A stretch of 64,000 nucleotides of DNA. It comes from Apus apus. Taxonomy: Eukaryota; Chordata; Aves; Apodiformes; Apodidae. The notes under the pieces were generated by a model. The model had not been told where the DNA came from and made no database searches. It saw only the letters and a program-made list of their open reading frames with translations. Position numbers and translations under genes: made by a program. Positions within the stretch are counted from its first letter, which is position 1, and every line of letters begins with the position of its first letter. The stretch is taken from NCBI RefSeq assembly GCF_020740795.1, contig NC_067296.1, positions 7,851,001-7,915,000 of the forward strand, given 5' to 3'. Positions 10,891-64,000 of this stretch are shown here, piece after piece.

Positions 10891-10975
10891 CGACCGACCG
10901 CTCCCCCTCCCCGCTCCCCGCCCAGGGCGGCCCCTCCCGCCGCCGGGAGCCCAGGGCGGGGCGCAGCGCCCCCTG

Positions 10976-11255: not shown

Positions 11256-11772
11256 CCGACCCGCCGCCGCCACGGGAGGGGCCGGTGCGGACAGCACCGA
11301 CAGCACGCACCCCGGTGCCGCCACGACAGCCTCCCACGCGTGATGCGAGCGGCCAATCCCCTGAAGAGTCCGTTCTCAACCGGCTAATCCACCTTCTGCA
11401 TTTGTACATTGCGTCCTAAGCGGTGCAGGAGGCTCCAGTGCTTTGGGTTTTGAGCACGTGTGAGCAATGGTGGATGACTCGCCTGTTGCCCAACAGTAAT
11501 TCAATCATAATAAATAAAAATTATGTGCTTTGTAAAGCGCTATAATTTCTTTTGCAACTAGATGTAGATAAAAACTGATTTTCTCACAGTCAGACAAATA
11601 ACGGAACCACAAGAGGTCCTGCCTTTACTTCCCTTCCTTGGAACGCTCCTATCAGAGCAGTTTGACCTGGCAGGACACAAATGTGTTCCTGCCAGTTCTG
11701 CCCAAGTCCTGCGAGCTCAGGGCTGCTTCTCTAGGAAAAAAGAAAAATTAAAGTTCTAATATGTACCAAGTG

Positions 11773-38214: not shown

Positions 38215-38900
38215 GGAGGCCGAGTGCAGCGCACCTGCCCGGGGAGGGGCTCAGCCCCTGCCCTCGGGCTGCAGGACCGGGCAGGACGCTGTGGGGGGCG
38301 GGGGCCGTGCCTGCGGGGCGGCGGCACCGGGAGCGGTTGGGTGGGTTGCGGTGGGTTGCGGTGGCCCCCGGGGCCGGGTTCCCCCCCCGCCCCGCAGCCT
38401 CGCGCCGCGGCCGTTGCTGCTCCCGCCCCTCCTCGCCAGAGGGCGCGCGCGGCCCGCGGCGGGCGGTGCGGGCTGGGGCGGGGCGGGGCGGAGCGGCGGC
38501 TGCCATGAGCTCCGCCGGGCGGCCGAGGGGGTGCTGCGGCCGGAGAGGCCGCCGGAGCCCCGGGCGGGGGGCGGCGGCGGCTGAGGAGAGCGGAGCTCGG
38601 CTGGAACCCGTCGGCCGGTGAGGAGGTGGGCGCAAGGGAGGGGCCGCCGAGCAGGGGCTGCCCCGGCGCGGGGGCGGGCTGGGCTGCGGGGTCTGAGGGA
38701 ACGGCGGAGGGGAGGAAGCTGCAGGTGCGGCCGGCGGGCTTCGCTCCGGGCAGGGGCTCGGGGCTCCCTGAGGCAGGGGGCGGCGGGGCAGCACGGGAGG
38801 AGCGGGCCGGGGGCTCGCAGCGGGCGGGTCAGGGTCGCTGTGGGCAGTAACCTCCGCCCCGCGCCGGCTGCCCCGGGGCCCGCCCCGCCGAGAGCTGCCC
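38215..38900 (+). promoter_or_regulatory. CpG-island promoter, + strand, candidate BCAS4 promoter
   Basis: This is a GC-rich island with consecutive GC boxes (GGGGCGGGGCGGGGC at 38476-38490) immediately before GCGGCGGCTGCCATGAG. It lies about 5 kb past the PARD6B 3' end. A + strand first exon with a good donor follows. BCAS4 is the expected next + strand gene by synteny, and a BCAS4-like exon lies 12 kb downstream. However, the first-exon peptide does not resemble the BCAS4 N-terminus I know, so the assignment is an inference. Confidence 0.55.
38491..38617 (+). other. Candidate first exon (non-coding or short N-terminus)
   Basis: It starts near the GC boxes and ends at CGGCCG|GTGAGG (donor GT at 38618-38619). 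An ATG at 38505 opens 37 codons plus 2 nt before the donor (MSSAGRPRGCCGRRG...). This arginine- and glycine-rich stretch is not recognised. In the unspliced reading a TGA occurs inside the donor. It could equally be 5' UTR. The borders rest on motif reading only. Confidence 0.35.
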
Positions 38901-41900
38901 GGGCTGCTGCCCCTCTTCCCCAGCCCCCTCGGGGGGTGTGAGGAGCTCCCTCGCGCCCCTCTCCCACTGCTCGTGGTGTTTGCCGTGTTTTTGGAGCCAG
39001 CGGGGGGTTTGCATTCCCTCTGGCTGAGGAGGGGGCTTGTCTTCAGGTCTCCTCTGCCTGGGATGCAGCGTTGGGTAAAGTTGGGCTGCTGCTCTGCTGA
39101 ATAAGTGTTTCGATGCGCTTTTTTTCTTAAATGACCGTGGCTGTGGCTGCTACTCTTGTTTTTGTGGAACACAAGGCTACTGGTGACGGTAAGGTCAGGC
39201 TCAGAGCACTGATGCGATTAAGTGATGCTTAGTTGGGGAATCTCAGGTGCGGTTAGTTACCCGAGTTTGGTTGTTTAGCTTAATCCGGAGGGTGACAGTG
39301 GTTGTCTTGGAGAGAGCACTGTCACCATCCTGGTAGCGGCTAGAGGACGCTTTAGATCCCTGAGGGCAAGGAGGGAGGTTCTGAAGTTGCACTTTGTAGG
39401 CTAAGACACTCCTCCACCTACCCCCCAAAAAAAAGAGAGGGAGGCTACAAAAACAGAAGTAGAGAGCGCTGGGAAGTATCCTCCTTTCGGACCTGTAGGC
39501 AGCTGTTACGCCGCTTGAGCCTGGTGGTAAAGTGAGTAACGTTCTCATTGGGCAAAGACTTTAAAATTTTCTCAGGTTAAAAGACACTTCTAAATCAGTC
39601 TTTATAATAGCTTCCCCTCACCCTTTTCCTTAATTTTGGCAGTAAAATGTTTATGTGATTTGTTTTTTTCTTGGAGAAAACTCTTGTTCAGTTTCACTAT
39701 TAAGATAATGTTTTGCCTGTGCCTCTCCCTTTACATCATCACTCTGACAATTTCATCTCTCCATGTGGGGTCATCCATGATTTGCAATAAGTCAGACCAC
39801 TTACATCAAAAACTTGGGACCTTTGTTTTGGTTTTCTGTTCAGCATTTTCAAGGAGATGATATAGTGCTTAGTCCACGATACCCACATAATTTTCCTGTG
39901 GTTAAACCACTGACAGCTTTTGTCTTACTTCTGGATTAAGATCAACGTTATTAGTCATCTACACATCTATTAACAGTTGTGAAAATGAGCTTTCAAGCTT
40001 GATTAAGATGACATTGGAAAGTAAGCTTCTTTGTAGGGAATAAGTTTCATTAAAATACTAGTTCATGTCAGCAGGATTCTAGTGGTATTACCACATGCTA
40101 CGCGTGTTAAATAAGAAATGAAGACCTGCCAATGGATAAAACAATTTGCCTGTACAGTGTTATATGGCAGAACGTGTATTTTTGTAACTGAGTGCCAAGC
40201 CTGTTAGTTCTTGAAAGGAAAACAGCAACAACGTGTTCTCTGTTACTTGCAAGTCATTCTGTTTCCTTCAGGCATCTTCACCTGAAATTAAATGCTTGTT
40301 TTAATACTGGTCTCTCTTGATTCTTGCAGATATTGGTAGCTTACTTAAAGCAGCAATGTAATTTAGGTATTTTCCTTCTTGGGGATTACTCACAGCTTTT
40401 GTGGAAGCATCTTCTAAAGTGTCTCTTCCTGTGGGCCTTGCCTTGCTAGCTCAGTGCTGTCACATATCAGTTCTGTTGAAATCAGAACGTGGGCTTACAG
40501 TTCCTTTCCAAAAAGAGCTGCCTTAGTGTTTTGCATTTTGAAAATTTTGTATTTAGCAATAACCATTTACTCTAACATATAACTCCCAATTTTCATTATA
40601 ATTTTTATTTTGTGTAGTAGTTGTAGCAAATGAGGCTATGACAATGATGAATGCAAAAGGAAGATATTTGTATAGTCCAGGAGAAGATTTTGCTAAGTGA
40701 AAGTTTTCAAGCATATCCTGCATGACATAATATTGTTCTGCCTAATTTCAATGTGTGCTGTGAACAGCCATGGAAGATTTTAGTTTTACTATTGAGATAC
40801 ACTTGCCATTCTTCTCTTTTTGTTTCCCCTTATACAGTGATTGTTTCCCCTTGTTTTCACTGTTTGGTTTCCTTTTTCAGTATTCTGAAGGTGGCATAGG
40901 AGGACATTGTACTGAAGAACCTGTTAATTTTCAGTAATATTGAAATGTTCCTTCTGGAGTCTCTAATGTTATAAGGAGCTGTGTGGTTTTCTGGTTTGGC
41001 TATTTTTGAAGTTTTCTATGGCTACCTTTTCATCTTAATGGCACAGTAGGAGAGCACTTCAAATTCTGGCAAAGCCAGCTTAACTTTTTGAGTGAAAGCA
41101 GAAGGCTTTTTTGGGAAATTTGTTGATTTATTTTTTTTTTCATGTTCTTTAATGAAGTGTGGTAAGTTAGAACACTATATTTGTATCTTGCATGCCTGAA
41201 CAGTTGAGGACATAAAGCACCTGACCCAAATATTTTTATCAAGAAGCAAGCTTTGTATTAAAAAAAAATAAAATAAATCCTTGGGAAAAGCAGGTAAATT
41301 GTTCTAAGGTTGAATGGGAGCACAATGCTAAAGCAAAATGAAAGGAGTGGTGGGGAGAGTTACAAAAGCTTATCTTATCTTGAGCTTGAATTAAAGAGGG
41401 AGGAGATTGTTGTCAAGAAACAGAGATATTTAAAGGGAAGTGGTGAAAAAGGGATATTACTATGGGTGCAGTATAGACTACATTAAAGAGTCTGAAAGGA
41501 AAGCTCAAAGCTAAACTGCCTATTTTCTCCCTTTAAGTTACAAAATGAAGGCATGGTTTTAATTTTTTTCTGTTTTCTTTCCATAAATAAGCAGGAGAAT
41601 CAACAATATGGGAACATTAAAGTGGTACTGTTGTGCCTTTGGCTAAGGTTTCATGGTAGGTTAACACTGCTAGTGAAAGATCCAACGTGTCTCTTCTTCT
41701 TGCTGCCTTTGTCAGTGCCAGCCTTCACTTGGCTAATGCATTGAGTTGAAGAACTGATCTGAGCTAAAAAGATATGGCAAAGAAATTAACCATTAGTTTT
41801 TAATCCAGAAAAGTTTCCTGATTAATTCCATCGGGAATGTCTGTCCTCTCACATGCAAAGGATTGGCCTTAGGGGCTTAAGTGAGTGATGGAAAAGACTA

Positions 41901-44049
41901 CTTTTATAGCCAGTGCCAGCTTGTGTAATTATAAAGTGATTGTCAAATTACAGTCTTAACTAAGAAACACTTGTCACTCCGTATTTTCATTATAACTTCA
42001 ATGTGGTCAGTAGGGGTTATTTCAGATCTTAATTATAAATACAACAAACTAGTGGAATTTACACCTGCTTTACAGTCATGCATTCATTGATTGCCACCAC
42101 TGAACAGCCTTTTCAAAGCTGGAAGTTTGGTATCAGTTTTGGATTTATCTCTTTAAGCCAACTGTGCTAGTCCTGAACATGGAGCTACCTTAGTGGTTTC
42201 TAGTCCATAAAGCTGAGTGTGCACAGACTTGCCAAGAAGCTTCTGGAGTTTGATAGAATTGTTCTGTAGGCCATCTGATGCTTGCACCACCCACTGGGAT
42301 TGCTCTGCTGTAAAATACATGAAATGAAAAAGCTAGCAATTATGTTGCTCTGCCTTATGAAGGCTTGAAGAAATCAGACTCAATGCTTTCCAGTTTTTAA
42401 CATATTACATTTATTATAGTAACATCTAATCACTGGGAACTCTTTCCTATTTGAAAAGAATGCATTTTTCTGTTGCTAAGCAGTGATCTTTCCAGAGTTA
42501 CCCAGCGTGCAGTGGGGAGGAATAGTGCTCTTCTTTCTGAGGAGAAATTAGATGTGGAAATTCTGCTCCTTTATTTAAGCATGCAAAGGAGCAGCAGAAG
42601 GAAAACAGCTTTTCAACACAGAAATCTTTATCTCAGACAGACATGGAACAGATTGTTAGGAGATGTAAACTCATGTTAGCAAGACTGAAATCCATGCATT
42701 GATTTACAGCATCTATGGACCCTTCCTGATAAACCTGTGGAGTAATTTAAGGTTTCTTCTGCTCAGATATGTACACAAAAAAGAGGCAGTGAAACCTTTG
42801 TGGGTAGGTTTTTAATCTGGTATAAGTGAAATTACAATGTGAATATAGTGTGATAGTTTATGCCACGATGGCAACTTCACACAGAGTTGGTGAAGCACAA
42901 GCATCTTAGGAAATAGCATTAGTAGGCTGAGAGGTGTGGTCACTAAGTGAATGAAGATGCCAGCTGCTGACAATTTCTCTGAGATAATACATACCACTCT
43001 TAAGTGCCGCTCTAACATAGTTGCAGAGCCTTTGGACTAAGTTGGGTCACGTTCCTCATACTCAGAACAGGACCTGAGCTCCCATCTGCCTTCTACTGAA
43101 ATAGGTATTTATCCTCAGCCCACGTTATGCCCTATATGTAAACACACATGTTTGCCCTTGTGGAAACAGCCACCATTTATTCCATGTTCTTGAGACTTGT
43201 TTGTTGTTCTTACTTTCCTCTTCGTGATAGCATAAATCTTTTAGGTTTTGAATCACTGTACTGGAAGTGAGTAGGAACTGAGTCCCCAGTCGTTGCATGA
43301 TTGCAGACCTAGAATAGCACACTGTTGTTTTGTGAATTAATTCTAAACTTCAGTTAAGAGTGAGAGTCTATCAGCTTTTGTTCTCAGCAGAGGTGGGTGT
43401 TCCTGGGCTCTTGGCTTTAGGTTGACACTCTTGTAGCTGTTGAGTTTTTCTGGAGCTCTGAAAACAGGCTCCTTTTCCAGTATGGGAAAAACATTTCAGT
43501 CCTGTCCAAAACTGCCCTTCTGAGCAGCTCTTCCTTTTTTTTCCTTTGCTTCAGAATAGTCAAAGTGGTGGGTTTGGGGTTTGTTTTGTCTTTTAGGTAT
43601 TTGCTAACGATCAGTGGTTTTACGGGCTTTAACCATTAAGTGAATATCATGGGCTGTAACTTCAAATTGACTTTCATAAATCAGACTTTGTGTTACATCC
43701 AAGCTTTCTGCTTCAAAACTTGAGCGAGATGCTTGTCGAGGAAACTTGCTGAAATATGCGCTGATATTGTAGGTTTAGAAGCCACGGGCAGAAAACTCAT
43801 TGTGAGATCTAGAACCTGAAACGGGCGTGGAGGCAGATGCTGGGGACATCCTCCTGTCATACAGGTCACCTCTTGGTGCAGGGGTGGAAAGCCCCTCCCA
43901 GGGCCTCAGAATTTTACATGTCTCGATACACTGAATTCTGTGCCCTTGCGTTTGTCGCTTTTGGAGCAGGAATTGGCCCCAACTCTCCGCAGCTCCGCGT
44001 GGGTTCCCCAGTGGGATGGCAGAAGAGGGAAGGCACAGCGTGTGTGCTG
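38901..44049. other. Between the two CpG islands, nothing secure
   Basis: Probably the first intron of whatever starts at 38.5 kb. I searched by eye for BCAS4 exons 2 and 3 and found no convincing match. Confidence 0.55.
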
Positions 44050-44335
44050 CCCGCCAGAGGCCCCCACCTGGCCTGTGTGGCTGTTTTTCTCCCTCCTGCG
44101 GGTGCAAGAAGCGGCAGAGGCGGCTGCAGAGCTGTTGAGGAGGCTGGGGGGGGGGGGTTCGGCGGGGGCCGGGCGGGCGGGGGGCGCGGGGCCGCCATCT
44201 TGGAGCGCGGCACGGCGGGCAGGGCTGCGGGCGCCCGCCAGGTGGCGCTGGGGCGCGCGGGTCTGCCCGCCCGGCCCGAGGTGGGACCGGGGGGGGCCGC
44301 GGTCCCTTCCGTCCCCTTCGCCGTGGTGTGAAGCC
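44050..44335. promoter_or_regulatory. CpG island with YY1 motif, orphan promoter
   Basis: This is a compact GC-rich island inside AT-rich DNA. It holds GCCGCCATCTTGG at 44191-44203, the classical YY1 site, whose minus-strand reading CCAAGATGGCGGC often overlaps start codons. On the minus strand an ATG at 44198 opens MAAPRPPPARPPPNPPPP. On the + strand, CCCGAG|GTGGGA at about 44280 is a possible donor. A G12 run (44146-44157) and G-rich clusters could form a G-quadruplex. Direction and gene are unknown. It may be an alternative promoter or a non-coding RNA start. Confidence 0.45.
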
Positions 44336-47300
44336 TTCCTAGAAGGCTGCTCCGGTGCTACAACAGCTCGTTTTGAGACGGGGGCGCTGGACGGGCTGAT
44401 GCAGACGCTGGTGATGTGTGTTCCCGTAACGTTCATGGGCACCGGCTGCTAATTAAGGCCACCTGTGCCAGGTGCTGTACAAATGCAGCGAGCTCGTCGT
44501 GGCTGCTTAGAGCCTGCAGTCAGAATCCGAGAGAGAAGTTGATACGGGTGGAAGAACTGAGCAGGGAGGACTAATTAATGGTGGGGTTGTGACTGATATA
44601 CTGTGCAGCATTTGTAGCATGCCAATTATCCTCACTGCTCTTGGTGCCTAATTGCTTGGGATAAACCATTTAGAGCAAGAGGTATGTGTTACTATTTAGC
44701 TTACCTCAGGCTTTCTGCACAGAGTGGTGCTGTCTGAAGGCTATTTGGGTTATGGTGCTCATGTAAGACTAATGAATGTGATTTTTGCAGTCAACTTTCC
44801 TTTCTTGGGGGGGAGGGGGGGAGAAAGGTAAAATTAGGGAGAGGAACTGATGCTGCATTTTAACCCTTCCTGAGTGCTAGTTCAGGTAACATGGACCAAA
44901 TTTTTAGAGGAAGTTTCTCTCATGATAACTGATACACAGACCATCTTGTCTTCTATTAGCACTTACCACAGCGTTTTTCTTGTGTCTTCAACCATCTTGT
45001 GTAATGCATGTGTCACTGGCAAATACAACGGTTGCTGATGGTATTGAATGCACATCTAATGGCACGAAGTGACCAGCCAACCTTTCCTCTGGGACTTGTT
45101 GCTTATGAGCTATTTTGTTGGATGATTCTTAGGAACTGTATAGATGAATGGAAAGGGACAGGATAAAGTGAAGCAGATAAGAAAATAATGTGGCCAGTGT
45201 TTCTTAAGCAGCTGAAAACCCATTTCCTTTATTGTTACAAGCTTTAGTGCAAATGAAAGACCTTGGTGTGCTGGCCTTTGTGCACATTATCTTCTGTTAA
45301 CAAAACATATGCCAGTATTGCTTTTGAAGCATCTTTCCACCTTTCTGTTCATGTATCCCAGTGTTGTTTGGAGAAATGGTGTGCTTACTCTTAAGGGAAG
45401 AACTCAGAAGTCATAGGTGGTCCCAAAGCAGCCTGTTTTGGTCTGCAAGAACTCATTGAAAACTCAGATTAACATGTTTAACACAGTTTATGCAAAATAT
45501 AATCAGCTAACTAATTATTATTTTGTTATGGGACAAATCTTCCTTCCATCTTGGATTTGAATACTGCTCAAGAAAAGTGATGCCATCCTCCTTGTTCTAG
45601 GTAAATCAGTCAGCAATATAGCCAGTTATTAATCCTTTATTGACTTCTATCAGAGGTTTCTGGTTTTGTTGTTGGCATGTCTTGCTTATGGAAAGGGCGC
45701 ATCATTGCTTCCAGAAGGAAGTGACATAGAGTGGAAAGAAACTGCAGCTTGGCTCATGAAAATCTCATGGGTTCTTAAAAGGAGAAATCGCTGCCTTGTA
45801 AGAATAGTTCAGTGTTAGTGGCTGTTTAAGCGGTTCTTTTTCCATTCAGCTTTTGATAAAAATAGCTGTAAAGAAGCATGTGAAACTCGGAGCATGCAGT
45901 CTATTTTTTTATATATCTTGGCTTTCAGTTGTCAGCTTTATAGTCTCTAGTACAGCACATTAAGTGTGTGCAAAATGTAGAAAACAAAAGATTGGTTTCT
46001 TGGGCCAAAAATTCTTTGAATTCATTCCTGAAAGGTGATGATTGCTTCAGTGATACGACATTTGAATCAATAGCTCTTCACTGCTGATCATATTCTGTCT
46101 GATTTACTATTAAGTCCATTCACTCAATTCTTCTGTTTGGGAGCTTATGCTAAGATTTTGTATGTACCTCGTGCTTTTTCCTATGAATCAAGCATGCAGC
46201 TTACATTTTTGGCTCTAATATGGGGAAGATGGTTAGTTTGTTCAAATGGGTCCAGTGAGCTTTTAAACCTCCTTTGTGACTTCTTCTCTTGTCAACCTTT
46301 TATACAAAAAACACTAACCTAGTTTCAATACTCTGTCTTTGCGTTGCCCCTGAAAACATTTTTCCACAACCTGCAGGCTGTGAATAGTTCCCTAGTATGC
46401 AGATTATTTACCTTATCTGGGAATATCAAAGCACTGCAGCCAGTGTGCTGATTCTGTGCCTTTCTGTGCAGTACCTACAATGTAAGATTCCTTTCAGCAG
46501 CACATCAAGTGGTATCTGGGAATCTAATAAATCTAATGTAGTATTTGAACTGATTCCAGCTTCTGTGCCTGGCAATAATTTGGTCTTTTGTCTATGCCAA
46601 CAAAAGGCAAGGAGAATCTTGTTGATTTTTTTTTTTCAATTGGGCATTCAGTGAAGTATTTGCATAGAGGAATTTGGCTTTTCTTCTTTGAGTGTGCTGC
46701 TGCTTTTCCCTTACCCAGTACTCTTGATGCATATGTTTGAATATTGCAACGAGGAAGAAGCTGTATGCTCAGTGCTAGGAAGACAAAATGCTATTTCCAG
46801 TTGTCACATTGTTGTACCTGGCTAGGCACAGCACAGCGCTTAAAATGGACACTTGGTACAGGAGGTAAGTGACAATGACAGTGCAAATAGAGTTGAGCAT
46901 GCCTCATGCTTGCCATGGGAGGAGCAACTTGCAATAAAAAGATTGTGCTAGAAGAATTTTAGTGCCAGTTATTTAACTGTTGTGATGTCTTCCTTAATCC
47001 ATTGACTTCAGTAAAGTAAATTAATATATTTTAAGTGGCTTCAGAGCCTCTCAAGTATAATTATCAATTTGTGAATTTTAACTGAGCTATAATTTGAACC
47101 AGTGACACAAAAGCAAAAAAAAATTCATTGCAATAACCATACTTTTGTATATGCTTTTTTAATATTGTTTTCATGGGTCATTGTTAGTTACCTTTGTAGA
47201 CACGGTTCTTTCTGCTTCTTTTATATCAAAGCACGTTCGAAAATATTTCTGTTCAGAGATGCACAGTTGGTTTAGTTACATGTGAGAATAAACTACTTCA

Positions 47301-49254
47301 ATTTTTTTGGCTAATCCTTGAAGAGATGTATGGATAGACACAGAGTTTCTGCTTATGCTTGATACTCCTTGATACTCTTTCTTTTTTTTTTTTTTTAATA
47401 TGTGTGTTGATCCTCCAGCATATTCAGCTGTTTATAAAACCACCGGTTAGTTGTTCTCAAGCCATTGAACCTTCTTGTGGATCTTGCCTCGGGGGAGTAT
47501 GTTTGTAAATATTACTATATTATGGTTCCACAGCCCAGCTGCTAACTGCTTATCTTTGTCTCATGGACTTAGTTTGGGAACCTCCTCCCCGAGGTCCTTA
47601 AGTGTGAAACCTGGTTTCATCACTCGGGAAAAGAGAGGAAGACCTCAGTTTTCTCTTTTCTCACCACCAAGCTGTTCATTTCACAGTGGTTACTTTTACT
47701 TGGTGATCCTTTTATGTTACTCTGTATTAACATGCGAGATTAAAGACTGAAAAATAATATATAGAGATAATTAAAACAAAACAAAAAAAACCCACAACCA
47801 TCTGAGACAAATAGGATTTGCACAGTATCTTTGACTTCTGGCTCCAGGTAATTTTGTTTTCTTTTCCTGAAAACAAATAAATCTTGGTTGCTTTTTTTTT
47901 AAAGTACCAAATAAGAAGAACCTGTGCTCATTTAACTGGAACAGCTTAAACTGCACTGTATGCAAGGATCAGGTCTTGCTGCCCTACACGCAGTGTGCCA
48001 TTCCTGGTTTGTGTTCTAATTCATCATTCCTCCTCTGGTTGTGCTGTCTCCTAGCTGACTTCGGTGCTGTTGGTTTGCTACTTCCTTGAGATTAGTCTTG
48101 CTGGCTTCAATTAGAAGACAAAGCTGAATCAAACCTTCCCTCCTTGCCCCCTCCTCCAATTAGCATAGTAAAAACTAGTAAGAGGAAGACAGGTTTTTTG
48201 CTATGGGCTGCTGTGCTCTGGTGCTTGTGCTGAGTGCTCGGCTAAAACTTCAGTAAGATAAGGTAAAATACATGGCATGAGGGGAAATAAATCTTGTTTT
48301 GTAATGTGGGGCTTCAGATCAGTTCTGCTTTCTATGGCTTGTGAGAGGTTGCTGTACCAAGAGAATCATTTCCTTTGTCATGTGCTGACTCCTCTTGAAC
48401 TCCTCTGTCGCTGTGGCTCTGCAGACTGCTGCAGAATGACTCTTCTTGAATCATATTTGCATATAATTTCCTTTCATCCCAGGCTGCTTGCTGGAAAATC
48501 AGCTCTCCTGTCTTGCGTTGGTTTATTTCTACCCTGAAAGAAAGATGGTTTAGATTTGTCCGTGTCTGCTCTGACCTTGTGTTGACATTTTTTGTATTGG
48601 ATCTGTGCAACATCTCCCTCTTTCTGGCTATGTCCCAAGCTGTGTTTATATTTACAGTAGTTATCTACTATTTAGCTGTAAGAGTGGCTTTTCCCTAGTC
48701 CTTCCTGAGACCAACATTAGCAAACTGTTTTTTGGAAAGTCCAGGCTCAATTTTTCTCTGATGTAGTTTACCTGAATGGGAATGTCAGCTCAGACAGATC
48801 ACCAATCTGTTTTGCACATGTGCTTTATGATAGAGGAGGGGTTTTTTTGCTTATCATTGACCCAGAATAATTCAATAGAAGAAACCTGGAATTCTTCAGC
48901 TTTGGCTCCTTCATTATGTATTCTGTATTTTATTTAAAGTTAGAAAATATGTCTGATTCCATTCACAGGGATCCTGCCAGTGTGTCTGTGCTCACTTTCT
49001 GTTGGTTATAAAGTACACTGTAAAGATAACAGAGTGTGTCTGTGTGGACTGCTATGTCACTGCTGAGGAAGGTGTCCATATGTATATATTTAGTGGGTGT
49101 AGTACTGAGACCAGTAATACAGGAGATACTGTTGGTTTGTTTACAATAGAAAGCTACTACAATTTTGCTATGTCTATTTGATCTCCTATTATAGAACACT
49201 TACAGGATTATAAAAACACTTGATCTGCATGTTCTCATTCTGGTAATAAAAATT
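44336..49254. other. Probable intron or intergenic DNA, nothing recognised
   Basis: AT-rich sequence with G-rich runs (44806-44822) and the T15 tract. No exon is recognised. Confidence 0.55.
47382..47396. repeat. Poly(T) tract, 15 bp
   Basis: A T run after two copies of TTGATACTC in tandem. Confidence 0.9.
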
Positions 49255-50103
49255 CCCCAAGATGAGTGGAGAGGTTGACACACCAGAAGGAAGAGCCAGC
49301 CTCCAGGTTGATCTAGACAGGCTGGAGGAGTGGGCTAGCAGGAACCATATGAAATTGAAAAGGGAGAAGTGTAAAGTCTTGCACCTGGGAACACATAACC
49401 GAGGAGTGCAGTTCAGACTGGGATCCACCTGGCTGGAGAGCAGCCCTGTGGAAAGAAACCTGGGATCTTGGTGGATAACAGGCTTAACATGAGTGAACAG
49501 TGCACTGCAGTGGTGATGCTGGGCTGCATCAACAAGGGCATCACCAGCAGAGATCAAGAAGTCATCATCCCACTCTACTCAGCGCTTGTCAGACCACACC
49601 TGGAGTACCGTGTTCAGTTTTGGTCCCTGCTCCACAAAAAGGATGGGACAGGCTGGAGAGGGTGCAGAGAAGGGCCACAAGGATGACCAGAGGACTGGAG
49701 GACCTGCCATATGAGGAGAGGCTGAGAAAACTGGGTTTGTTCAGCCTTGAGAAAAGAAGGCTCAGGGGAGACCTTATTACAATGTTCCAGTATTTACAGG
49801 GTGGCTACCAAGAAGTTGGAGACTCCCTATTTACAAGGAGTCACATGGAAAAGACAAGGGATGATGGGTACAAGTTGATCCCGGGGAGATTCCGATTTGA
49901 CACAAGAGGTAAATTTTTCACCATGAGGACAATCAAACATTGGAATAGTTTCTCAAGGGAGGTGGTAGTTCCCTTCCACATTGGACAGTTTGAAGTCTCA
50001 GCTTGACAGGGTGCTGAGCCATCTCATACAAACTATAGTAGTACCTAGAAAGGTTGGACCAGATGATCCTTGAGGCCGCTTCCAACCTGGCTTTCTATGA
50101 TTA
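49255..50103 (+). mobile_element. CR1 LINE, 3' 850 bp with reverse-transcriptase remnants
   Basis: The element is in sense orientation. It encodes pieces of the C-terminal part of CR1 ORF2 in more than one frame: VDTPEGRASLQVDLDRLEEW near the start, then ALVRPHLEY and EERLRKLGLFSLEKRRLRGD. It ends with the CR1 3' UTR (GGACCAGATGATCCTTGAGG) and the terminal TTTCTATGATT. At least two frameshifts show it is dead. It is 5'-truncated. Its end lies 461 nt before the BCAS4-like exon. Confidence 0.93.
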
Positions 50104-50564
50104 ATCAGTAATGGAGAATATCAAAACTCCTGATCTTTTTTAGCTAAAATCACCTGTTGTTGTCTTTTCCATTGCCGTTTCCTTACTCCTACCACTTCAG
50201 TCACAGTGGTAGCAGTGTCTTTGTGGGTTCTGAAGAGCTTTTCACCTCACTGCTGAAATGTTGCCAGACCACTGCACACTATGCAAGTGCTTACATACTG
50301 TTTATGCTGAGAAAGGAGCAAAACTCTGCCCTTAGGTAAGGTCAAAAATTAGCCTAGCCAAGCCATTAGCCTTCTTATGGCTGTAAACATCTGCAGTCTA
50401 CTTATGAGTATGTGCCCCTTGGATATATATGCTAGCAATAGTTCACTCTGAAATCTTGTCACAGCTTTTTCTTTGACTTCTAATCTCTAGCTAGGATAAT
50501 GTTGAAACCTAGCACACGTGCTTTTAATTTTCATTTTCACTAGGTGTTTTTCTTCTCTCCATAG

Positions 50565-50702
50565 GCATTTGCTAAAATGGTTGCACATCAATACTCACTC
50601 CTTCCTAGAAGAACAAGTGCTTGAAGCAGAGATGAGCCATGGCAGTTTTCTGAATACTATTTGCAAATTATTTCATTGTGCAGCTATCTTGTCATTTAAA
50701 AC
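50565..50702 (+). pseudogene. BCAS4: BCAS4 exon with internal frame break (probable relic)
   Basis: The exon is bounded by a pyrimidine tract plus CCATAG and by the donor GTGAGT. It begins AFAKMVAHQ in one frame and continues SFLEEQVLEAEMSHGSF... in the next. Human BCAS4 as I recall it reads AFVKMVGHHVAFLEADVLQA, then ERDHGAF. The match is clear on both sides, but seven bases (50592-50598) sit where human has one codon. The exon is therefore 138 nt instead of about 134 and the frame shifts. Read in the first frame it hits TGA at 50622. BCAS4 is a BLOC-1 subunit 4 (cappuccino)-like coiled-coil protein of poorly defined function. PARD6B-BCAS4 order and orientation match human chromosome 20. I did not find the other BCAS4 exons. 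Decay, an assembly error or an unusual splice form remain possible. Confidence 0.62.
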
Positions 50703-52714
50703 GTGAGTATTCTTAAAGTTTCTTTGAGCAGATGGGAAAGTGGTGTTAAATACCCTTTCCGTATCACATGTGGCCTTACAGCATATTTAATTATTACTTT
50801 TAAGTGGCTTAAAAGAACTAGCTACAGTTTGCTTCTGTAAAGGAAGTTTTTCTTCTGTTTAAAAATTTTTTTTCAATAATTTTTTTTTTTTAGTTAGTGC
50901 TTAGGCTTTAATAGTTCCAGCAGTAATTTTTGAGGAGTTCTACATTTTGCTCCTGAATGAAAGGATTTTCTCTGTGTGTGTATATGCAAATAGGGTGCTT
51001 GTTATACATCATCTTGCAGTGAGAGACATAATCATAGCTTGCTCTTTCCATTTAGTCTTTGTGTTTATGTCAGTTATGTTGAAATTCGTAGGGTCATCCA
51101 TGGATGAGCACTGGAGGGGATGAGAACTCTTTCAGTGAATTTTAGTGATACTTGCTGATAGAAGAAGAAAGTTGGGAGTCAGGGATGAGATCTGATATGG
51201 ACTTAAGGAAGCTTTACGTACTCTTCATCCTGTCTGTCTCTGTTCTTTTCCAATTATGTCTTCATACTACTTACCTTTACACTGTGTTTTCCTTCTCTAA
51301 ACTCCCAGGTCATTCTCTAAATCTGTTGTTTCCCCAGCAATTCATCTCAATCTCCAATCAGCCTTTTCTGAACTTATCCTTTCTGTTCTTCCCTCTACAT
51401 GTCATGTGAATCTACCATGTTCTCAGTCTCGGCATATCTCCATCAGGGTCTTTGTTCTAATCTCAGCTACCTCCCTGCTTTCTTTTGTCCCTTCTGTACT
51501 TCTGCCATTATGTGTCCTGATGGGGCTTCTGTGCCAGTCTGCATAATACTGGGTAGGCAAAAATACACAGGTATTGGTGATTATGTATGTACAGCTGAAC
51601 CACTTCAAATTTTTGTCTGATATCGTAGCAACATCTGGGAGCTTCCGTTGCAGGAAAAATCCAGTTCCATTTCAGCAGATACAGGACAGACCTTAAGTGT
51701 TTAAAGAGAGTCATGAATATTCAGTCTGGGTAACTGAGGCATGGACAGGAGGTGGTGCATACTGATTTAATCTTCAGCTGTCAAACTTCAGTGGATCTTT
51801 AGAAAACCACAGTTTATATAGACCCAGTAAAGAGTTGTAACTTGGCCAAATTTGGTAATATTTTCATAAGAATGGGAAAATATATCCCTGATATGAGGGC
51901 AGTTTACTGACAATTTAAAATCTCTGCTGGAGTTTAGGAAGGCATTGGAGCTTTTCAAAAGAGTTAAACAACACATACTTTTCCTTAATTTCATTATCTG
52001 AATTGGCTTGATTTTGTTCCCTGAAACTTTCCAAACATGGTAAAACTGCAGCAGATACCCAGATATCTGGAAAATATATCAAAACTGGAAGTTTTGCAAG
52101 GTCGGTCTGCCTATACAAATAATGTTGTATAATAGTAAGAATGTGGAAAAGGTCAACTATTTATTCAGAAGCTGGCTCGAGTTCTGCTTGAAGACAGCAT
52201 AGGATTTTCATTTTTTTTTTCCTTGTAATTACAAAGAAAAATTTTGAAATGCTGCATAATCATGTATTCATGTTGCAGGTATTTAGAATTATAGTATTAG
52301 TGAACAAAAGAGAAAAATAGAGGACAGTGTAGCTTCCTACTGTACTGATCTTATCCCTTCCATTGTGTCTCCCAAAAATAGTACATCTAGAAAGCTTGGT
52401 GAGACAGGTAACAAGGATGAGCACAGATAAGAAAAGTTATCTCACAATAATTTCTAAATAGACAAAGACAAAGGCTGAAGGGAGGACAGAACAGGATAGA
52501 GATTTGTGAATTCATCTATATGTGGAGTGGATGAATAGAAAATGATCATTCACTCCCTCCCATAATTCAAGAACTAGCGCCATCCAATGAAATTATCAGC
52601 AGGCAGGTTCAAAGTACACAAAGGGATGTACTTACTTTAAATGATGTATTAATATACTATAGAATTTATGTCCACAGAATGTTATGTATTCCCAAAGTAA
52701 TTAGATACATTCAT

Positions 52715-52726
52715 GGGGGGGGGGGG
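52715..52726. repeat. G12 homopolymer
   Basis: A run of twelve G. Such runs are length-unstable and error-prone in sequencing. Confidence 0.9.
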
Positions 52727-55700
52727 AAATCCAGCAATGGATGTTAAACCAAAACATCTGGCCTTCAGCCACAAATTCTTAAAGACTGGGAAGTAGGTTT
52801 GTATATTTACCCTTCAAACCTTTGCCTAGGCAATCCCTTCAACTGATGACCACTTAACAGGGATTATTAGGCTGCATGGACCCTTGATTGATGCAGTACA
52901 GCTGCTTGCTAATAACTTTTATGCTGTGGTTCTCACTGTAAATTCTGGCTCTGAATGAGAATGCATTGTGCTGGTAAGGGATTATTAACTTAAAGTAGAA
53001 GTGTGCAGGAAAGGATTGAATTGTTTAAGTACCTGAATGGAGTTTGAAGTTCAACAGCAACATTCTGTTTGGTTTGACTTGAAACCCTATAAGATCCTTA
53101 CCAACTATCCAAGTTTCTGTACTCTCCAAATCTGTTTCATTCTAGCTGTCCATCCTTTTTCTCCTGTTATGGAGGATGTCATTGCAGAGATAGCCTTTTT
53201 GCATCTTTTGCTGTTTGAAAGTTATGACTGTCCTGACCATTTTTGTACTTGAGTTTAATTTGTTCTGAAATGATAGCATTGAAATTATGTATCTTTTCTC
53301 CTTAGCCTTGATGGGACTGGGTAAAAAGTTTGAGAGTTCCTCTCTCTCTGAGTGTGTCCTTGTACATGTATTTCAGCTAAGTTTTTTCCTCTTCTAGTTA
53401 AACACACTGCTATTTTAAACTTAAGGGAAAAATAATTTCATTAGTTTACAATTATATTTCAAAGTGCAGCAAAATCCTGTAGGGTTTATCTTTTGTATTT
53501 TTGGCAGTGTTTTTTGGGTATTCAGAAAGTTGTTTCATATAGACTTGCAGTACACAGTAGCACTGGGAAAGGTGTCTAATCTGTGGGAGAAAAGTGAGTA
53601 ATCAGAATTCACTTTTTGTATTGGGAATATCTAGAGGTGGTCTGAAAAGAAACAACCTTATACTAAATATAAATTACAAATATAACTGACTAAGTCTGAC
53701 AGCTTGTAAGAATGTAACACCTCCTGAGGGAACAGAACAGAGGAAATAACTTTCTCTTGTGAAGTCTGCAAGCTCTGTGGAAGAAAAGCTTGAACTTTGT
53801 ATGGGAGAAACTATGATTTCGAATCTTTTATCCGAAGATGTTATCTGTGCCATGGCTGAATGGGGTTCAGCAATCTTAGAGTAAGGACAGAAAACCTATT
53901 TTAGAAAACTTCAGCATGTGGAGTTTTAAAAAATCCCTACTAGTATATTTTCCAATGGAAGAAAACCAAATGTCAGCAACTCTTGCTGTTTTGTCATGCA
54001 TCTTGTGCTATCTGGCATTTTCTTAAAGCCAGAAATTTTTTTTCAATGTCATTGGCTGAGAATATTGAAAAAATATATATATATTTTTAGAGTAAATTTT
54101 AATCCTTGTATAGTTGCAGGGAAAGGCTTATAAAATCCTAACCTCCAAAAAATCTTGTCAGTCGTATGAAGAAAAAGCTGCGTGTTCATTAGATTTTTTT
54201 TCCAAAGGCTTTTTATTGTCTTTTTCCTTTTACTAATATGGTAATATCTAGAACAGCAGCTGCTTATCTGAGGTGGAGTTTGCTGTCTTGTCTTGGCTAA
54301 AGTGCTGGCTAATGGTTTTTCCTGACACCTGGGGTACATTCTGACAAATTGCACTGGGCAATTGATGTGATACAAAGCATTCTGTGTGTTACTTCATTGG
54401 TTCATTGGAGCTCAGTAATGAGCAAAAGTTATGGATGAGTTATATTGACTTAAGTATCTAGGAAAGGCACTTGTACTTAACCGTTCTTTTCAGTGGTTAC
54501 CGGGGTACAGTGTCAAGTGCAGTCTGGCTGCAGTCTCGACAGGTTGTTAGTAAGTTAATTCTCTGCGAGAGAAGAGCTCAGAAGGAGCTATGTAGAGTTA
54601 AGGTTTTGCTAGCTGGGTTTGAATTTTCTTAGATCTTAACAAAAATAATTGGAATAAGAAATCTTTCCTGTATTGAGAATTTGCTTTTTTTTTTTTAACT
54701 TTTGCATATGAACCTTCAAATGTAATTTAATGTCAGTTTCAGCATCACTATTTGCTATGTATTACCCATTTCTTTTCTTGAAGACTCCAAAGCACATATT
54801 GGCTTTTCTCTTATGTTGGCTTTGCCACTCACAACGTGTGATCACATATATGTCATGCTACTTCTTTGTGTCCTAGTTTACCTCACAAGATAATATTTAG
54901 TGTTTCCAAAATGCTGTGAGATTTTTCTGACAGCCTTGAAGAAAAATATTTGTTAAATTATTACTAAAATGTAGCAGATGGGAAAGATGAGCAGAGAGAA
55001 AATAGAGCAGTGTATTTCAAAACTGGGGGTGTACTATGTTCATATTTAAAACTCAGTAATTTTCAAGTGCTGAATACTACCAACCACTTTTTAATATTGG
55101 AGAAAATAAAAAAATCTGACACGCACTTAAACATTTTCTGTTAAAAACTTTGGTGCTGTGTTCAGTTTATTTAATCTGCAACTATGCTAGAAGTTCATCC
55201 AGTTTCATTCTGATTTGGACTAATTCATTAACAGATTCAGGAGCCCCAGATTGGTTACACTGGTTCTTTGTAGAGAAAGATAATACTTAAAAATGGGAAG
55301 ATTCATGTGAGGGGATGCAGTAGGTCCAGAAGTGAAATTTCAGCTACCCATGGCTTTAGCCCTCATTCACCTGTTTTTTTGAGGGAGCCTGCACAATTCT
55401 CAAAGTTGAAGCAAGAGTTTCTTACGAGTTTGCTGAGTCTGGTGTAGAGCAGAAGAGCTTGAGAGAGGTGGCAACACTGTGCTTGGACATCAAGTGGTGC
55501 TTCTGGTTTGGAGGAGCAGATGAGAGTGCTGGGGGCTTGAATGTTGCACGTGGGAATAGGCATAGACACACCTGTGTATTGAGAACACTGGGGAAGGCTG
55601 GGGGAGAAGTGGGAGTTTGGGCTGGTGGGATCCAGCAGGCACACATACAACATTATTGACAATAATAGTGTGTAGTTTTCATGTATGCAGGAATAGAAGT

Positions 55701-58700
55701 CAAAATACAAAATACTGCCTGTTCCCTCTTGAGCCAATTTTTTTTCAGTGCATCTAGAAGTACTGTAAAAAGTCTTTAAACTAGAAATGCAATTGTTAGA
55801 CTGTCCAAAACATGGCAGTACAATGGCACATAAATAAGGATTTGTGCAGCACATGTTCTGAGTTAAATACATAGTGATGGAGGCAAACTGCAGTGTAATT
55901 GCTGCTCTTTAGAGAGCAGTTGGTGCAAAGGGTCTCTTGTCCTAAACAGGTACCACTTACGGGAGACTTCAGCTTTTAATTGAGCCATCATGCTGAAATG
56001 GTAGTGGAAAAAAAGATCTCTAGCTTATGTGCAACAACGAAGTTAAAATAACAATCCAGATTCTTTGGTTTTTTTTATATCAATGCTAAGATTGGCTTCT
56101 GACTTCCTGTTCTGTAATGGGAAGGGATTAGGCCTTTTATGTTTTGAAAGAGACAGAGCCAATGCCTGCTGCAAAATTCCATCACTGTGATCAAACGGAT
56201 GAATAAAAACAGCTAAGAAAAACTTGATTTGTCAAAAAGCCACCTTCATTAATCATAGAAATTGTTTTTAAGCTATACTTGCATTTCGCTGACAAAAGCT
56301 TCTGGCTGCATATGTAAAGATTTGTAAAACAGTGCCTTTCTGGATGCTGGTATAATCTGTGCCAGAAAACAGAAACCCAGCCTCTGCATGTAAAGAGCTC
56401 CTCCTCCGCAGTTCAATTTCAGTGACTCTATTGGTTAGTATTGTTGAGCTTTAAATATATTCTGCAGAACACGGTTTACTAGGCTAAAATGCTCGTTCTT
56501 GAAAGGCAAGGAAAAAAATCTTGCCTCAGAGATGTTTTACACAGCATTGCCCTGTGCAGAGTTAAAGTGAAATTAGTTAACAGGCTGGCGCCAGTGAAAT
56601 AAGCAGTAAATGTCTCTTCACCCTCCCCTTTTCTTACACTCCTTTTGGCTGCTCCTGTAAGGAATGCAGCAAGTAGTGGCTACTGCTGTCACTATTGATT
56701 TAAACATTTGCATGTTACAGGTTGCAGCTCTGCACTGTGTTTGGGGGCAATATAGAAGGTCTTCAGTTGTATCAGATTTACTGTTCATATTTGAATTTGT
56801 CTTCTATATAAGGCTCTGTGACATTTTATCCATTGTTAAACAGGATTGTGTGCACTTATTGTTACAAAACAATGTGTGTAAAATACTTAGGGTTCACAAT
56901 CCCAGTGGTTCGTGGTTCCTATTCATAAACCTGTGCTGTGTTGCTGTCGATTCTTAAAAAAACAAAAGCAGTAAAATAATAAAAGCTAAAACTTGGCTGC
57001 TGTGTCTCTAGCTTAAGTGCCCTAGGGCAGCACGTTGTGAAAGGTGCTGTTGGGTCCCTTTCTTAGCAGAATTACTTGTGTGGATTTTTCTCACAATGCC
57101 CCAGTTTCTTTGTTACAGGTGTTAACAAATTTATACATCTGATTTTCAGAGAAATGAACCACATTTACCAAAATAGTAGAATTCTCTTACTAAAAAAAGT
57201 CAACTCTTTTCCCTGTTTCAGGGTTCCTTTGGTTATACTGTTTTTCTCAGTTTATGCTATACCAGCTACATTTTAAGTTCTAGCTGAGTTGCAGAAACAC
57301 CCTGCAGACTACATGATGTTAGTTTTAAACATTTCACATGGATTGTAATACATTGAGAAACTATGTTTTTGCCAGCCATAGTTGTGGTGAGCTTGTTGGG
57401 AACTTTGTTTTACCATATTTCTGTGGATTATTGCCTCCACTGCATGGTATGTTCCTCCATTTATTTCTGTAACCATGTAATATATACTTTTGTAATGGTG
57501 TCTCATTAGAGGAATGTCTGTAGAAATTGTGGTCTCAGTGTGACAAAAGCAAAAATGTCTGTGTTTAATTTGTTCCTATTTTTAATTCTGCACACAAAAA
57601 TGTTGACCTTTAAAATGGTTTTCTGTTTACAAACATTTTACTTAAGAATAATAAGGATTCACAATTTAAAGTGGGGGTTAGATGGCTTAAGTGAGAGCAG
57701 GGTGCTAAATCTTGAAGGACACGATTGACAGTAGTTCCAGGCACAAACTGCTTTCTGGGTAAACACACCAGACAAATGGGCAAAAGGAAACACATGCAGT
57801 ATCTTGTTGATAGGAATTGGAGGCACACAGGAATAAAATTACTTTATTATGGATGTGCCATACATCTGCAGTGTAGCTTGGCACCACACTGAAGTGTCTA
57901 CAGAGCCCTGAGTAGACAACTCGCTCTGTATGAAACTTGTTTGCTGAGCTATTGTGATGCTTCAGCTCTTCACCTGAAGTCCTTTTTTAAAGGACTAAGA
58001 AGAGTAGGTGAACAAAGAATCCATTTTATAATTGGAGAAACTGGTACAAGACCAAGAAGATGCTATGGGCTGGTAAAAGGTTAAATAGAAAAATACTCCA
58101 GTTATTCCACACAGAATAATTTCTGTTAAAATGTGGATGAAGTAGGAATGAGGGAATTTTGGAAAGGAATGTTTGTTCTGATTTGGCTTTTATAATATGG
58201 AGCACATTGTAGCTTGTGGATTTTCACAGTATCCTAAAGTGATACTCAGAAAGGAGCAACTCATATAAATCACTCTTACTGTAAATCAGGTTGACTTCTT
58301 CTGGAAGTACATAGATTAAGATGAATGAAATACAAAGGCTGTCTGGGGAATGAAGATCTTCATCCTGTTAATACTTTCAAAGAAAGTTGACCTAAGTATG
58401 TATTTAGCTATCAACTCATATACAAAGTGATTAAAAAATTGTGTTGTTTGTGAAATTAGTCTGAATCTTAGCTTTCGCTTTTACTTGAGGTATTTTGCAT
58501 ACAAGGTGAGAAATAAGGTGAGAGGTCAGATTCTGGAGAAGATTTTTCTTCTCTCCCTTTTTACAAATGACCACAGTGCTGCTAAAGGCTACATTGCTGT
58601 TACTAAATTGTTTGTTCTCCTTGTGGGAAACTGTTCTTTTCTTCCCCACCCTCTGCTTATGGAGTTTATTGCTGCCTTCCTGTCTGCCCTCCCCCAGCTT

Positions 58701-61251
58701 CGCACACATATCCAATTAACTGCCCCCTTCCTCTGCTCTTTCCTCCATCTCTTTGTGCTGCCTCATAGATGTTCCTACCTGGGACACCCACCGCTTTTAA
58801 AAAATATTTTATCAACTCCTTTGCAGTGCCTCTGCCTTTTCTGTGTGAGCCTGTTAAATATGGAAGTCTCCTGGGGGATCCAACTGACCTTCTCTGTGGC
58901 TCATTTTCCTGATGACTGCTCTCCTCTTGGTGGTTGTTCACAATTCCTCCACTTAGATTTTGTTTGGGACCTTTTGCATGTCATCTAGTAGCATGTGTAA
59001 CTGCTAAATGTATTTAGAATAAATACCTGTCAGGACAATAATGAGAAAAAAACTAATAACTAGAAGTCAAATAGATGAAGTGGGTGGCACGCTCTTGTAG
59101 AGAAGACACAGTGGCTGGATCTTTTGCTGGTATGTTGAAGTGAAACCAAAGTTTCATTTTCCTGCATATACTGTGCCTTTAACTGGGGCAGTTTAGCTGC
59201 TCCTGCATTAGAGAAGAGGCAGAGGAGCCAACAGGGGTTGAAAATCACCACAGCTGTCTTCATGCAAGCTGTTACTCTTTGAGCATTCAGTTTAATGTAT
59301 GCAGTCTGCCACATTCATTCTTGAAGTAGCTCTTACATGGGTAGCTGTAAAAGGGGTAATTTTGGTCCAATATACTTTCGACAATAGGAACTTTAATGTG
59401 ACAAGAGAAACGCACATCTTTGCTTCCTAGCATCAAAACTGTTGCAAGTAAATAAGCAGTTTCACAGTTGTCTTCAAAATTGTGAAAGACATTAATAAAA
59501 TCTGTGCAACTTTTTTAAGTACAGAGAAATCTACTCGCAAATGAATTCAAGTCTCAGGAAGAGGGCAGTAAGGAAGGAACTGAGGACAGTAATACTTAAA
59601 CATATGTGTTTCATTAATGTGAGGAGTGAAGTGTTGGAAATGCTAAGTGAATTCAAGAAACACCTGGGTTCCTTTGTGGAGAGGAAAGATCTGGTGAAAG
59701 ATCTGGGATGGAAATAAAAAGGCATGAGTTTTAAGTATGAAGGATCTGGGACCAGATGAGGGTTTTTTCACTATAAAGAATGCCTTGTGTTCAAGTATTT
59801 GTGGCATAAATGTATCCTGTTAGTGTCCTTTTTTCACTTGGGTATGACATATGCTGACATTGGCTATTTTGGTTACAACCACAGTATTTTTTATGTTTAA
59901 TTTTACTATTTCCAATCATTGGGAGTAGGACCCCAGCAGCTAATACACTGTGGTGTAGTTTTATGAAGATAAATTAGTTATATAACCTAGTAATAGGAAA
60001 TGGATGACATAGTTCTTTAGCCAGAATTCACAATTTCAAATTCACGCGTTGACTTTATCATTACAACTGGGGCATACACTGGAGGCAGCATTTGTGCACA
60101 GTTACTGTGCAGTGACTTTTCTGAAAAGGGTCTGTCCACCTTCCAGTGGATAGTTTTCCACCTCATGCACCATCACCACGTGGGCTTCTTTCCCTGACAG
60201 CTTCTGTAAAGAAACTTGATTTGGAATTTGCCCATCTAGATCAGGACCTCTTGCTCAGTGTATCTCCATACTAATTGTAGATGTCGCCCATCAAAGTGGT
60301 CCATTGGATGCTCTCTTTATAAGAACACATTTAAAGCATGACACTTGTTAAAGGCACATATGCAGATCTGGTGGATTTTTATTTTTTTGTCTTAGCAACA
60401 GCTAAGCAGAACTTCATAGCACATAACTTCAGAAATATGTATTCCTTAGTGACCTGGAACTATAGCAAATGCCTGTTCAACTGCATTACTGAAATGCTTG
60501 AGTGCTCTTTAGGATTATTACTAGAAAAACACTGAATACCGAATGAAATACCATTTTAGCCAAAACTAAAACAAAGCTTACCCTCATGTCTTGACATTCT
60601 CTAGGTCACAGACCCAACTATTGGAGCATAATGTTGATCACCTTTAGTTTTCAAGGGGGTAAGAAGTTAGGAATTTTTTTTAAGAACTGATTTTTTTTTA
60701 TTTTTTTTTTTTTAAGTTTAAAAAGTGTGTATTTCACCAAGTGGAGAAATGTTCCCTCTGCTGGTATCCATCCCTTCCTGGCTGGGCCATTTTCTGTGGC
60801 TTGCAGGCAGTTTTGTGTGTGATGTAATGGTGGTGTTGCAGGAAAGGTGCTTTGTTGTGCTGGGGCCTCTAGGAGCCGTAGGACTAGCATTTTTTTTCCA
60901 GAGCCTCCAACACAAACGCACACGGTGATGCGTTGGTTCTCTTACCCACTCTGGTTACCAGCGTAGTACCCTTCCCCCACCTCTTACCAAGTGTTTCTCC
61001 CCGAGGCAAATTTCTTGCTGTCTGGAGTACCAAACATGCACGGGCACTTTCTTTTTTCTTTAAGATTTCCTAGTGTAGTTGCTAAAAAGCAGCAAGAGCT
61101 AAAAAGACTATTTTACATAGGTTTTTCTGGTTTTAGTAGAGAGACAAAGAGTGTGTGTACATGTGTAAAAAAAATTACATAGTTTATGGCAAAGTGAGAC
61201 CAGCTTTCTCCTGTTTTTCTTTTTTTTTAAGTATCTTTACTCAGCAGTCAC

Positions 61252-61269
61252 TTTTTTTTTTTTTTTTTT
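61252..61269. repeat. Poly(T) tract, 18 bp
   Basis: An uninterrupted T run in gene-free DNA. Confidence 0.95.
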
Positions 61270-63522
61270 CCTGTGGTAAAAAATACGACGTGAGCAGATG
61301 GCAAGTATTAACACATGAAATGCACTGCCTGCTTGAAGTTGATTTAACAGTCTAGTTTTCTGTCGCTGGCTTTCAGCTAGTTAAGTAGTGTTTACAAGTT
61401 AATGAATTTGTTCCACTTGAAATATTTGTTGGTATGTGCTGAGGTTCACTGGTAAAGGGATCCTTTAGGAATAATAGAGGAAAGCATGATGTTTCTAGAC
61501 ACTGAGCTTGTGGGGTTTTTTTCCTTTGACTGATTTTAGCATTTTTGCCATTAATAGGAAAAGAGAGACAGAAAGAGCAATAGCAGGTAACACGTAGCCT
61601 TTTCTCTGATGTTGCAATCCAGCTTTGAGCACTGCAGTGATTCCATACCTTATAGCAGCTCCATATTTGAACCATCTAGTTTGCAGTTTCATTTCTATTG
61701 AATGTTCCTGAACATTAGACAAGGATTTGAAAAACAAATAACGTTTTATGTAGCAAATCAGGAAACATTTTCATATTCCTATGTGGTCTGCTTCCATGCT
61801 TGCTTTGCAAGGATGACTGTAAACTATTAAATAGGCTGCTATATATAAATTAGGCCACATTTGGCAGCAGAACTGCCTAGAAGAGGCTGATCGAATTCTG
61901 TATATGTTGAGTTTAATGCATAAAACTCCTTACTACACCACATGCTATCTACCTAATAGCACTTGAAACAAAGCCAGCTCCAAGAATTGTATTCATTGTA
62001 AGAAATATTTACTGCTGGTTACTGAGCATCAAACACACTTAGTGTTTATACAGCACATTGGTCTTTGTATAGAACGTTCTGTTTGTCAAAACTACCTAAA
62101 CCTGCAAACCAGTATTCCTTGTCAAGCAACCTGTAAGCACTGATGCACAGAAAGAGTTAACATATTTTACTATTTGAGCAATTTGTGCCAAAATAGTATG
62201 TTTTAAAGGCTTTGTTGATATTTTTGACATAGTTTTGAATTTTTTAAAATAGTAGATTTTAGTTTTCTTAGTTGTTTTTTTTTCCCTTTTTTTTATTTTA
62301 ATGTTACCCACTTTAATACCAGTTTATTCAAACAGGATGAAGGTCAAATTCCTGTTTGGAAAGGATGCCATCCATAGGTCACCTTTGACTTGAAATGTAA
62401 GATCATAACTGCCAGAGAAGACCAAACTAATTGCTTTGAATATGTGTGAGTGTATGTTTAATACCTAAAAACAGACAGTAATTTATTGTATTCTTGAAGA
62501 AGGCTTCTCTCCCAGGTAAACAGTGCTCGATTGAGTAGGGTTGAGATCAGTCTGCAAGCACAGACATTGGTGCAGCTTTGACAGGAGGCCTGAGGTGGCA
62601 GGTTTTAACTACCTGGGAGATGGTACAGACACCCCCTGGCTGTCCTGGAGTGCTCTGTGCTCCTGCTGCATGCAGTTCATACGCAGAAATGAGACTCGTT
62701 AACCATGCCTTTTATTGGGCTTTATGGATGTGTGACATCATTGGCAGCCAATCAGAAAGTGCTTTAGGGCAGAGTTTAGAAGCTATTTCATAATATATTT
62801 ATATTCAGTGCAGATATTTTTGGGCTTCAGTAACATTCATTTTGTCGCAGAGTCCATGTGTCAATATGGCTTGGGGAAAAAAAAGGTATGAAATAGCATG
62901 TTTGCCCTTGTTTTTTTTGTAGTTCAGCTGGTAGCAAAATGCTATAGAAAGCATAGCTGCTATGGTGCAAAACAGTTATTATGGAAATTATTTTCTTCCT
63001 CCAGCAGCAATAATGCTGCAAGCCTATCTTAAGCGATGTTTGCGTGCTCCCTCCTAGCCTGCTTCTGCTTAAGTAGCCAGACCTGAAATATTTCCCAAGC
63101 TGCTCTGGTTTGCCAAGAACAAAAATACAAGACAGCCTGCAGAAAACAAGTGTGTGTGAGTGCCAGCCAGAGTCACCCCTGCAGCTGGGCTTCCTTGTCC
63201 CTGGCCTGGCTTGGCTGGACTGGGGCACCCTAGTTTTCAAGCCCCTGGGCAGCTCCCACACCCCCTGTGTGCAGGGCACCTTGCTTTGCCTTTGCCTCAG
63301 TGCACACAGACTGTTTTATTCTCTCTTAGTTGACAACTTACCCTATTGAAGGAGAACCATTCACTGATAGTGTCTATTCCCACCATTCCTGCTTAACTCT
63401 TTCATTTCCAGATTAGCAGGACCACCTGGGATTGCAAAGCAAACTATTATGATAATTTGCAAACCATAACAATTTTTTTAAAAATCAGTTTCTATTAAGA
63501 CAAAACTGTATCTTTTTTATAG

Positions 63523-63537
63523 AAAAAAAAAAAAAAA
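63523..63537. repeat. Poly(A) tract, 15 bp
   Basis: An A run in gene-free DNA near the window end. Confidence 0.9.
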
Positions 63538-64000
63538 GAGGCATTTATCAGTGGTGGGACTGTTCCTGCTTTTATTTTGTGCTGTTTCTCCTCCCATTTA
63601 AGCACTGTGGCTGTGCATGTCAGATTGCTAAAAGTCACTATTCACATATGTTCCATGACGGTCCTGCAAAGCTTACAAGAGCAGTACTGACTCCATCCTG
63701 TTGGGATCCCAGAGATTTTATCTGCTACTGAGCAAAAAGACCTGGAAAGAAGTCTTTCAGATGTTAGCTGTATCTCTAGCATGCTGCTCAGTGTTCACAA
63801 ATTATTTAGAAAACGAGGCATACAGTGAGATGAGGAAGCTTGTTGACATAGTTATTTTGAGATCACAGAAATGATGCCAGCTGCAGAGAGCTGTAGACGG
63901 ATCTTGCAACATTGTGAGACTGAGTGGAAGAACTTGTAGCCAAAATGAAATGTCACTAAAGACAAGGTGATGCGAATAGGGGTGATGCAAGCAAGCTTTA

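Follow-up and report, generated by a model that had tools for sequence, protein, structure and literature searches.

BCAS4, a homologue of cappuccino, has been described as a protein whose function is unknown; in pig it lies in the gene order PARD6B-BCAS4-ADNP, and in mouse it is absent (PMC2374978). Mouse carries a transcribed unitary pseudogene of BCAS4, named Pbcas4. Its full-length transcript is reported to match the BCAS4 3' UTR only, and the authors' experiments indicate that it competes for microRNAs (PMC3580494). Human BCAS4 has in addition been treated as an intronic integration site (PMC12719739), and in another article the gene occurs in the reference list only (PMC6669545). In the open-access literature searched we came across no description of a loss of BCAS4 in birds.

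The DNA analyzed here is a stretch of 64,000 nucleotides from Apus apus, referred to as the window. Judged from its sequence, the segment at 50565-50702 is most likely a surviving coding exon of BCAS4, located at the original site of the gene downstream of PARD6B. Below we describe this exon, its surroundings and the search for the remaining BCAS4 exons, and we compare the locus with the mouse system.

The BCAS4 exon and its frame break

The reference proteins, among them human BCAS4 and PARD6B, were provisional sequences that did not come from a database record. The features of the exon, which we take to be exon 3 in our own provisional numbering, are the following.

50541 to 50564, + strand: intact splice acceptor, a pyrimidine tract ending in ATAG, read from the sequence
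50565 to 50702, + strand: putative relict BCAS4 exon with a frame break, 138 nt, recognized by two-frame homology and splice sites
50593 to 50600, + strand: perfect tandem repeat of a 4-nt unit where the frame breaks, a probable slippage duplication; a second such repeat starts at 50599
50622 to 50624, + strand: TGA stop hit by the upstream frame, from the translation
50703 to 50708, + strand: intact splice donor GTGAGT, donor score 7.97

On the + strand the 138-nt stretch is flanked by TTTTTCTTCTCTCCATAG upstream and by GTGAGT downstream. Translation from 50565 gives AFAKMVAHQ and then reaches the TGA at 50622. Translation from 50566 reads SFLEEQVLEAEMSHGSFLNTICKLFHCAAILSFK and stays open across the whole exon to the donor. 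The acceptor has pyrimidines at 15 of the 16 positions from -20 to -5, and an equally good acceptor with C or T before the AG and G after it occurs at approximately 0.05% of the AG sites in the window. The donor GTGAGT, preceded by AAC, was scored with a matrix of approximate frequencies, and its value of 7.97 is reached by 1.5% of the GT sites in the window. The exon coordinates, the two frames, the intact state of both splice sites and the encounter of the original frame with TGA are all as a sequence-only reading of this DNA had given them.

Similarity of the exon to BCAS4 is above chance. A frameshift-tolerant alignment of provisional human BCAS4 scored 83 at the exon, compared with 37 for the best control in a scan of the + strand from 29279 to 64000, where the controls were the opposite strand and one shuffle of each block. 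The alignment joins the two halves of the exon by a single 7-base step, which bears out the earlier proposals that each half resembles BCAS4 in a frame of its own and that seven bases occupy the place of one codon. The 3' half alone has an ungapped score of 62, a value reached by none of 200 shuffles (shuffle maximum 49). The ungapped score of the 5' half, 36, is no higher than chance would give over 34.7 kb, given a mean shuffle maximum of 33.9, and this half is counted as BCAS4 because it directly precedes the 3' half. When read through the break, the exon shares 19 of 44 residues with the provisional human protein, 6 among the first 9 and 13 among the last 34, the latter in keeping with the drift of the 3' half from the human residues that had been pointed out before. 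A tblastn search of the window with provisional human BCAS4, a check suggested along with those proposals, retrieved the 3' half with a score of 28.5 bits and a window-wide E of 0.006, the next-best matches being at chance level with 23.1 bits. Two other exon-3-like stretches on the + strand, at 44211 (score 42) and 38034 (score 40), lie above the control maximum of 37 and were taken as composition noise; they illustrate that, with so few controls, exceeding the maximum by 3 to 8 carries little weight. Pfam was uninformative for the exon and for the provisional BCAS4 piece. Among PDB sequences one search had no match and another gave five matches, all with E of 0.32 or worse and none a relative; in IMG/VR nine stretches fitted a pattern, of which none encoded a relative, and Rfam gave no matches at gathering score.

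By the alignment the exon should hold 44 codons plus 2 nt, or 134 nt, and it measures 138 nt; it therefore contains four bases too many. Because a perfect 4-nt tandem repeat sits at the break, a small tandem slippage duplication of four bases is the simplest account of the lesion. It is an account and not a proof. Perfect 4-nt tandem repeats start at 0.9% of window positions, and we estimate that one would fall within some 15 positions by chance in roughly one case in seven. This is the only lesion within the exon, and the 3' frame contains no stop.

The PARD6B neighbourhood and the search for other BCAS4 exons

PARD6B lies 21 kb upstream of the exon on the same strand. Three pieces of it were matched, none of which contains a stop or a frame break.

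16033 to 16116, + strand: match to the PARD6B N-terminus (first coding exon), 71% over 28 residues in tblastn with provisional human PARD6B, of which the last few matched codons may enter the intron
20679 to 20900, + strand: second coding exon of PARD6B, 97% identical to the provisional human sequence
28454 to 29278, + strand: last coding exon of PARD6B, open, with the PDZ domain; 80% over 276 columns, Pfam PDZ 2.7e-11 for 28421-29278

Because this upstream neighbour is the same as at the pig locus, we consider the exon to be probably at the original BCAS4 site. ADNP has one long coding exon, and this exon is absent from the window, in which the longest stop-to-stop frame anywhere is 380 residues.

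The state of PARD6B also bears on whether the four extra bases could be an assembly error in a BCAS4 gene that is intact. Such an error would agree with the finding of only one lesion in one exon. However, PARD6B is read from the same window with its frame unbroken in the three matched pieces, long-read errors do not typically take the form of a 4-nt tandem repeat away from homopolymers, and the absence of exons 1 and 2 described below would require a separate cause. We regard an assembly error as extremely unlikely.

With the provisional queries, tblastn, frameshift-tolerant and ungapped scans of the interval from PARD6B to 50565 gave no recognizable BCAS4 exon 1 or 2, nor did tblastn (E up to 1000, best 25 matches per query) or ungapped scans of both strands elsewhere in the window. 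Coverage was the whole window for tblastn, both strands for the ungapped scan and the + strand from 29279 to 64000 for the frameshift-tolerant scan, and the window sequence contains no N. In 500 simulated cases per identity level, an unbroken exon 2 rose above the shuffle maximum of 45 in all 500 at 65% identity, in 487 at 50% and in 409 at 40%; for an unbroken exon 1 the corresponding counts above the shuffle maximum were 500, 488 and 412 of 500. Intact copies of exons 1 and 2 are therefore very unlikely, provided that the provisional queries are correct; copies in a heavily ruined state may still be present. Besides the frame break, the unrecognizable state of these two exons is a second observation that the sequence-only reading had not made, and with both BCAS4 looks to be broken in more than one way.

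The candidates that emerged from these scans were rejected. The strongest is listed here.

42971 to 43044, + strand: weak candidate for a ruined exon 2, frameshift-tolerant score 41 with a control maximum of 33, stops inside

Its ungapped score of 37 was reached by 5.5% of 200 shuffles, and by eye it is without convincing splice sites. Two further exon 2 candidates, at 45615 and 60603, scored 34, just above the control maximum of 33, and an exon 1 candidate at 43909-43950 scored 33, where controls reached up to 38. As the latter follows the exon 2 candidate at 42971-43044 instead of preceding it, at most one of the two can be right. For exon 4, nothing above control was found downstream (best ungapped score 33, reached by 43.5% of shuffles) with a query that was a guess and for an exon that may sit beyond 64000.

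The mild decay of the exon at 50565 contrasts with the disappearance of exons 1 and 2, and for this reason a physical deletion of the 5' part of the gene would fit better than a slow decay of everything. Repeats of at least 60 bases that could explain a deletion by recombination were absent from 29280-50564. The missing exons would likewise agree with the exon being a fragment left behind by a move or duplication, with a working BCAS4 elsewhere in the genome; the upstream neighbour, however, is the one that the original site would have, as in pig, and we judge a relocated copy to be very improbable.

Two CpG islands are located between PARD6B and the exon. On the + strand of the first, at 38101-39000, an ATG in good context is followed by a possible donor, by eye, and in the second, at 43901-44600, no gene was recognized. 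Inspection by eye revealed no convincing first exon of BCAS4 in either island. Each of the two could have been the promoter of the old BCAS4 gene, and the island at 38101-39000 could be the start of a non-coding RNA. Reverse transcriptase frames, which we presume to be CR1-like, are found at 49250-50003 (+) and end approximately 560 bases upstream of the exon; elements of this kind point to the DNA of a bird or some other sauropsid. A GC-rich minisatellite at 10965-11263, consisting of a 20-base unit with a 60-base higher-order period in 5 copies at 92%, lies inside a CpG-rich stretch at 10801-11500.

These surroundings also have to be considered for the possibility that the exon is still part of a live gene, either because a new or unrecognized exon upstream has a phase 2 end and so leads into the downstream frame, or because an internal acceptor skips the break. 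The frame from 50566 is open over the entire exon, both splice sites are intact, and the CpG island at 38101-39000 could serve as promoter. In such a gene, however, the start of the exon would encode residues that are not those of BCAS4, no upstream BCAS4 exon was recognized in the window, and only 13 of 34 residues of the drifting 3' half are identical to human. A living gene that uses this exon is very unlikely in our assessment.

Interpretation as a probable unitary pseudogene

With high probability, BCAS4 is a unitary pseudogene in this genome, at its original site downstream of PARD6B. Its coding sequence carries a disabling lesion, the frame break with the TGA at 50622, and its exons 1 and 2 are unrecognized. 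The sequence-only reading had suggested a loss of BCAS4 function in this lineage with the locus still in its syntenic place. Of this, the coding loss at the syntenic site is well supported by the frame break, the stop and the position of PARD6B upstream; the loss of function itself, the nature of the lesion as a duplication, the order of events and the absence of a surviving copy elsewhere are what we infer.

Under the pseudogene interpretation, a four-base insertion, most simply a tandem slippage duplication, would have broken the frame, and the 5' coding exons would have been deleted or have decayed past recognition. A ribosome in the old frame would find a stop as codon 20 of the exon, and no working BCAS4 would be made. 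Conjecturing from what is known of the family, an overlap with BLOC1S4 is the likely reason why the loss would have been tolerated.

Several observations count against this interpretation. The single lesion, the open 3' frame and the intact splice sites amount to mild decay, which is odd beside vanished exons 1 and 2 unless these were deleted. The 5' half of the exon is at chance level when taken alone, a weak exon 2 candidate exists at 42971-43044, and the BCAS4 queries were provisional.

A more extended version would place the loss in a bird lineage, independent of the rodent loss, with the locus perhaps still giving rise to a non-coding RNA that starts at a surviving CpG island and takes in the relict exon by splicing. 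We consider this version unlikely. In 50703-64000, two seed sites for miR-185 (shuffled mean 0.74, maximum 3) and one for miR-665 (shuffled mean 0.37, maximum 3) were counted with provisional seeds, both within the shuffled range.

Comparison with BLOC1S4 and with the loss of BCAS4 in mouse

BLOC1S4 (cappuccino) is an intronless gene at a different locus from BCAS4. As a homologue of BCAS4 it also aligns to the 3' half of the exon, at 23.9 bits in tblastn with the provisional query. This match is weaker than that of BCAS4 at 28.5 bits and no better than the chance match of BLOC1S4 itself at 44092, which has 23.5 bits. The exon is nearer to BCAS4 than to BLOC1S4, by a margin that is small and obtained with provisional queries.

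Because BCAS4 has also been lost in mouse, where its remnant Pbcas4 is transcribed, the kind of event proposed here is a known one. We view the present case as a further loss of a gene already known to be lost in rodents, and thus as an event of an ordinary kind; a single lost gene is, on its own, ordinary. A second, independent loss of BCAS4, if true, would mean that some vertebrates can dispense with the gene, and would provide a natural replicate for the published claim that the RNA role of BCAS4 in mouse outlives its protein role (PMC3580494).

The absence of BCAS4 in mouse concerns the same interval, which in pig holds PARD6B, BCAS4 and ADNP (PMC2374978); in the present window, by contrast, a relict exon is visible and ADNP was not found. 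Pbcas4 represents the same gene, lost as a coding gene. It differs in being a rodent locus that is transcribed and whose role as a microRNA competitor has been put to experiment, whereas the locus described here is known from its sequence alone and retains a coding exon together with both of its splice sites.
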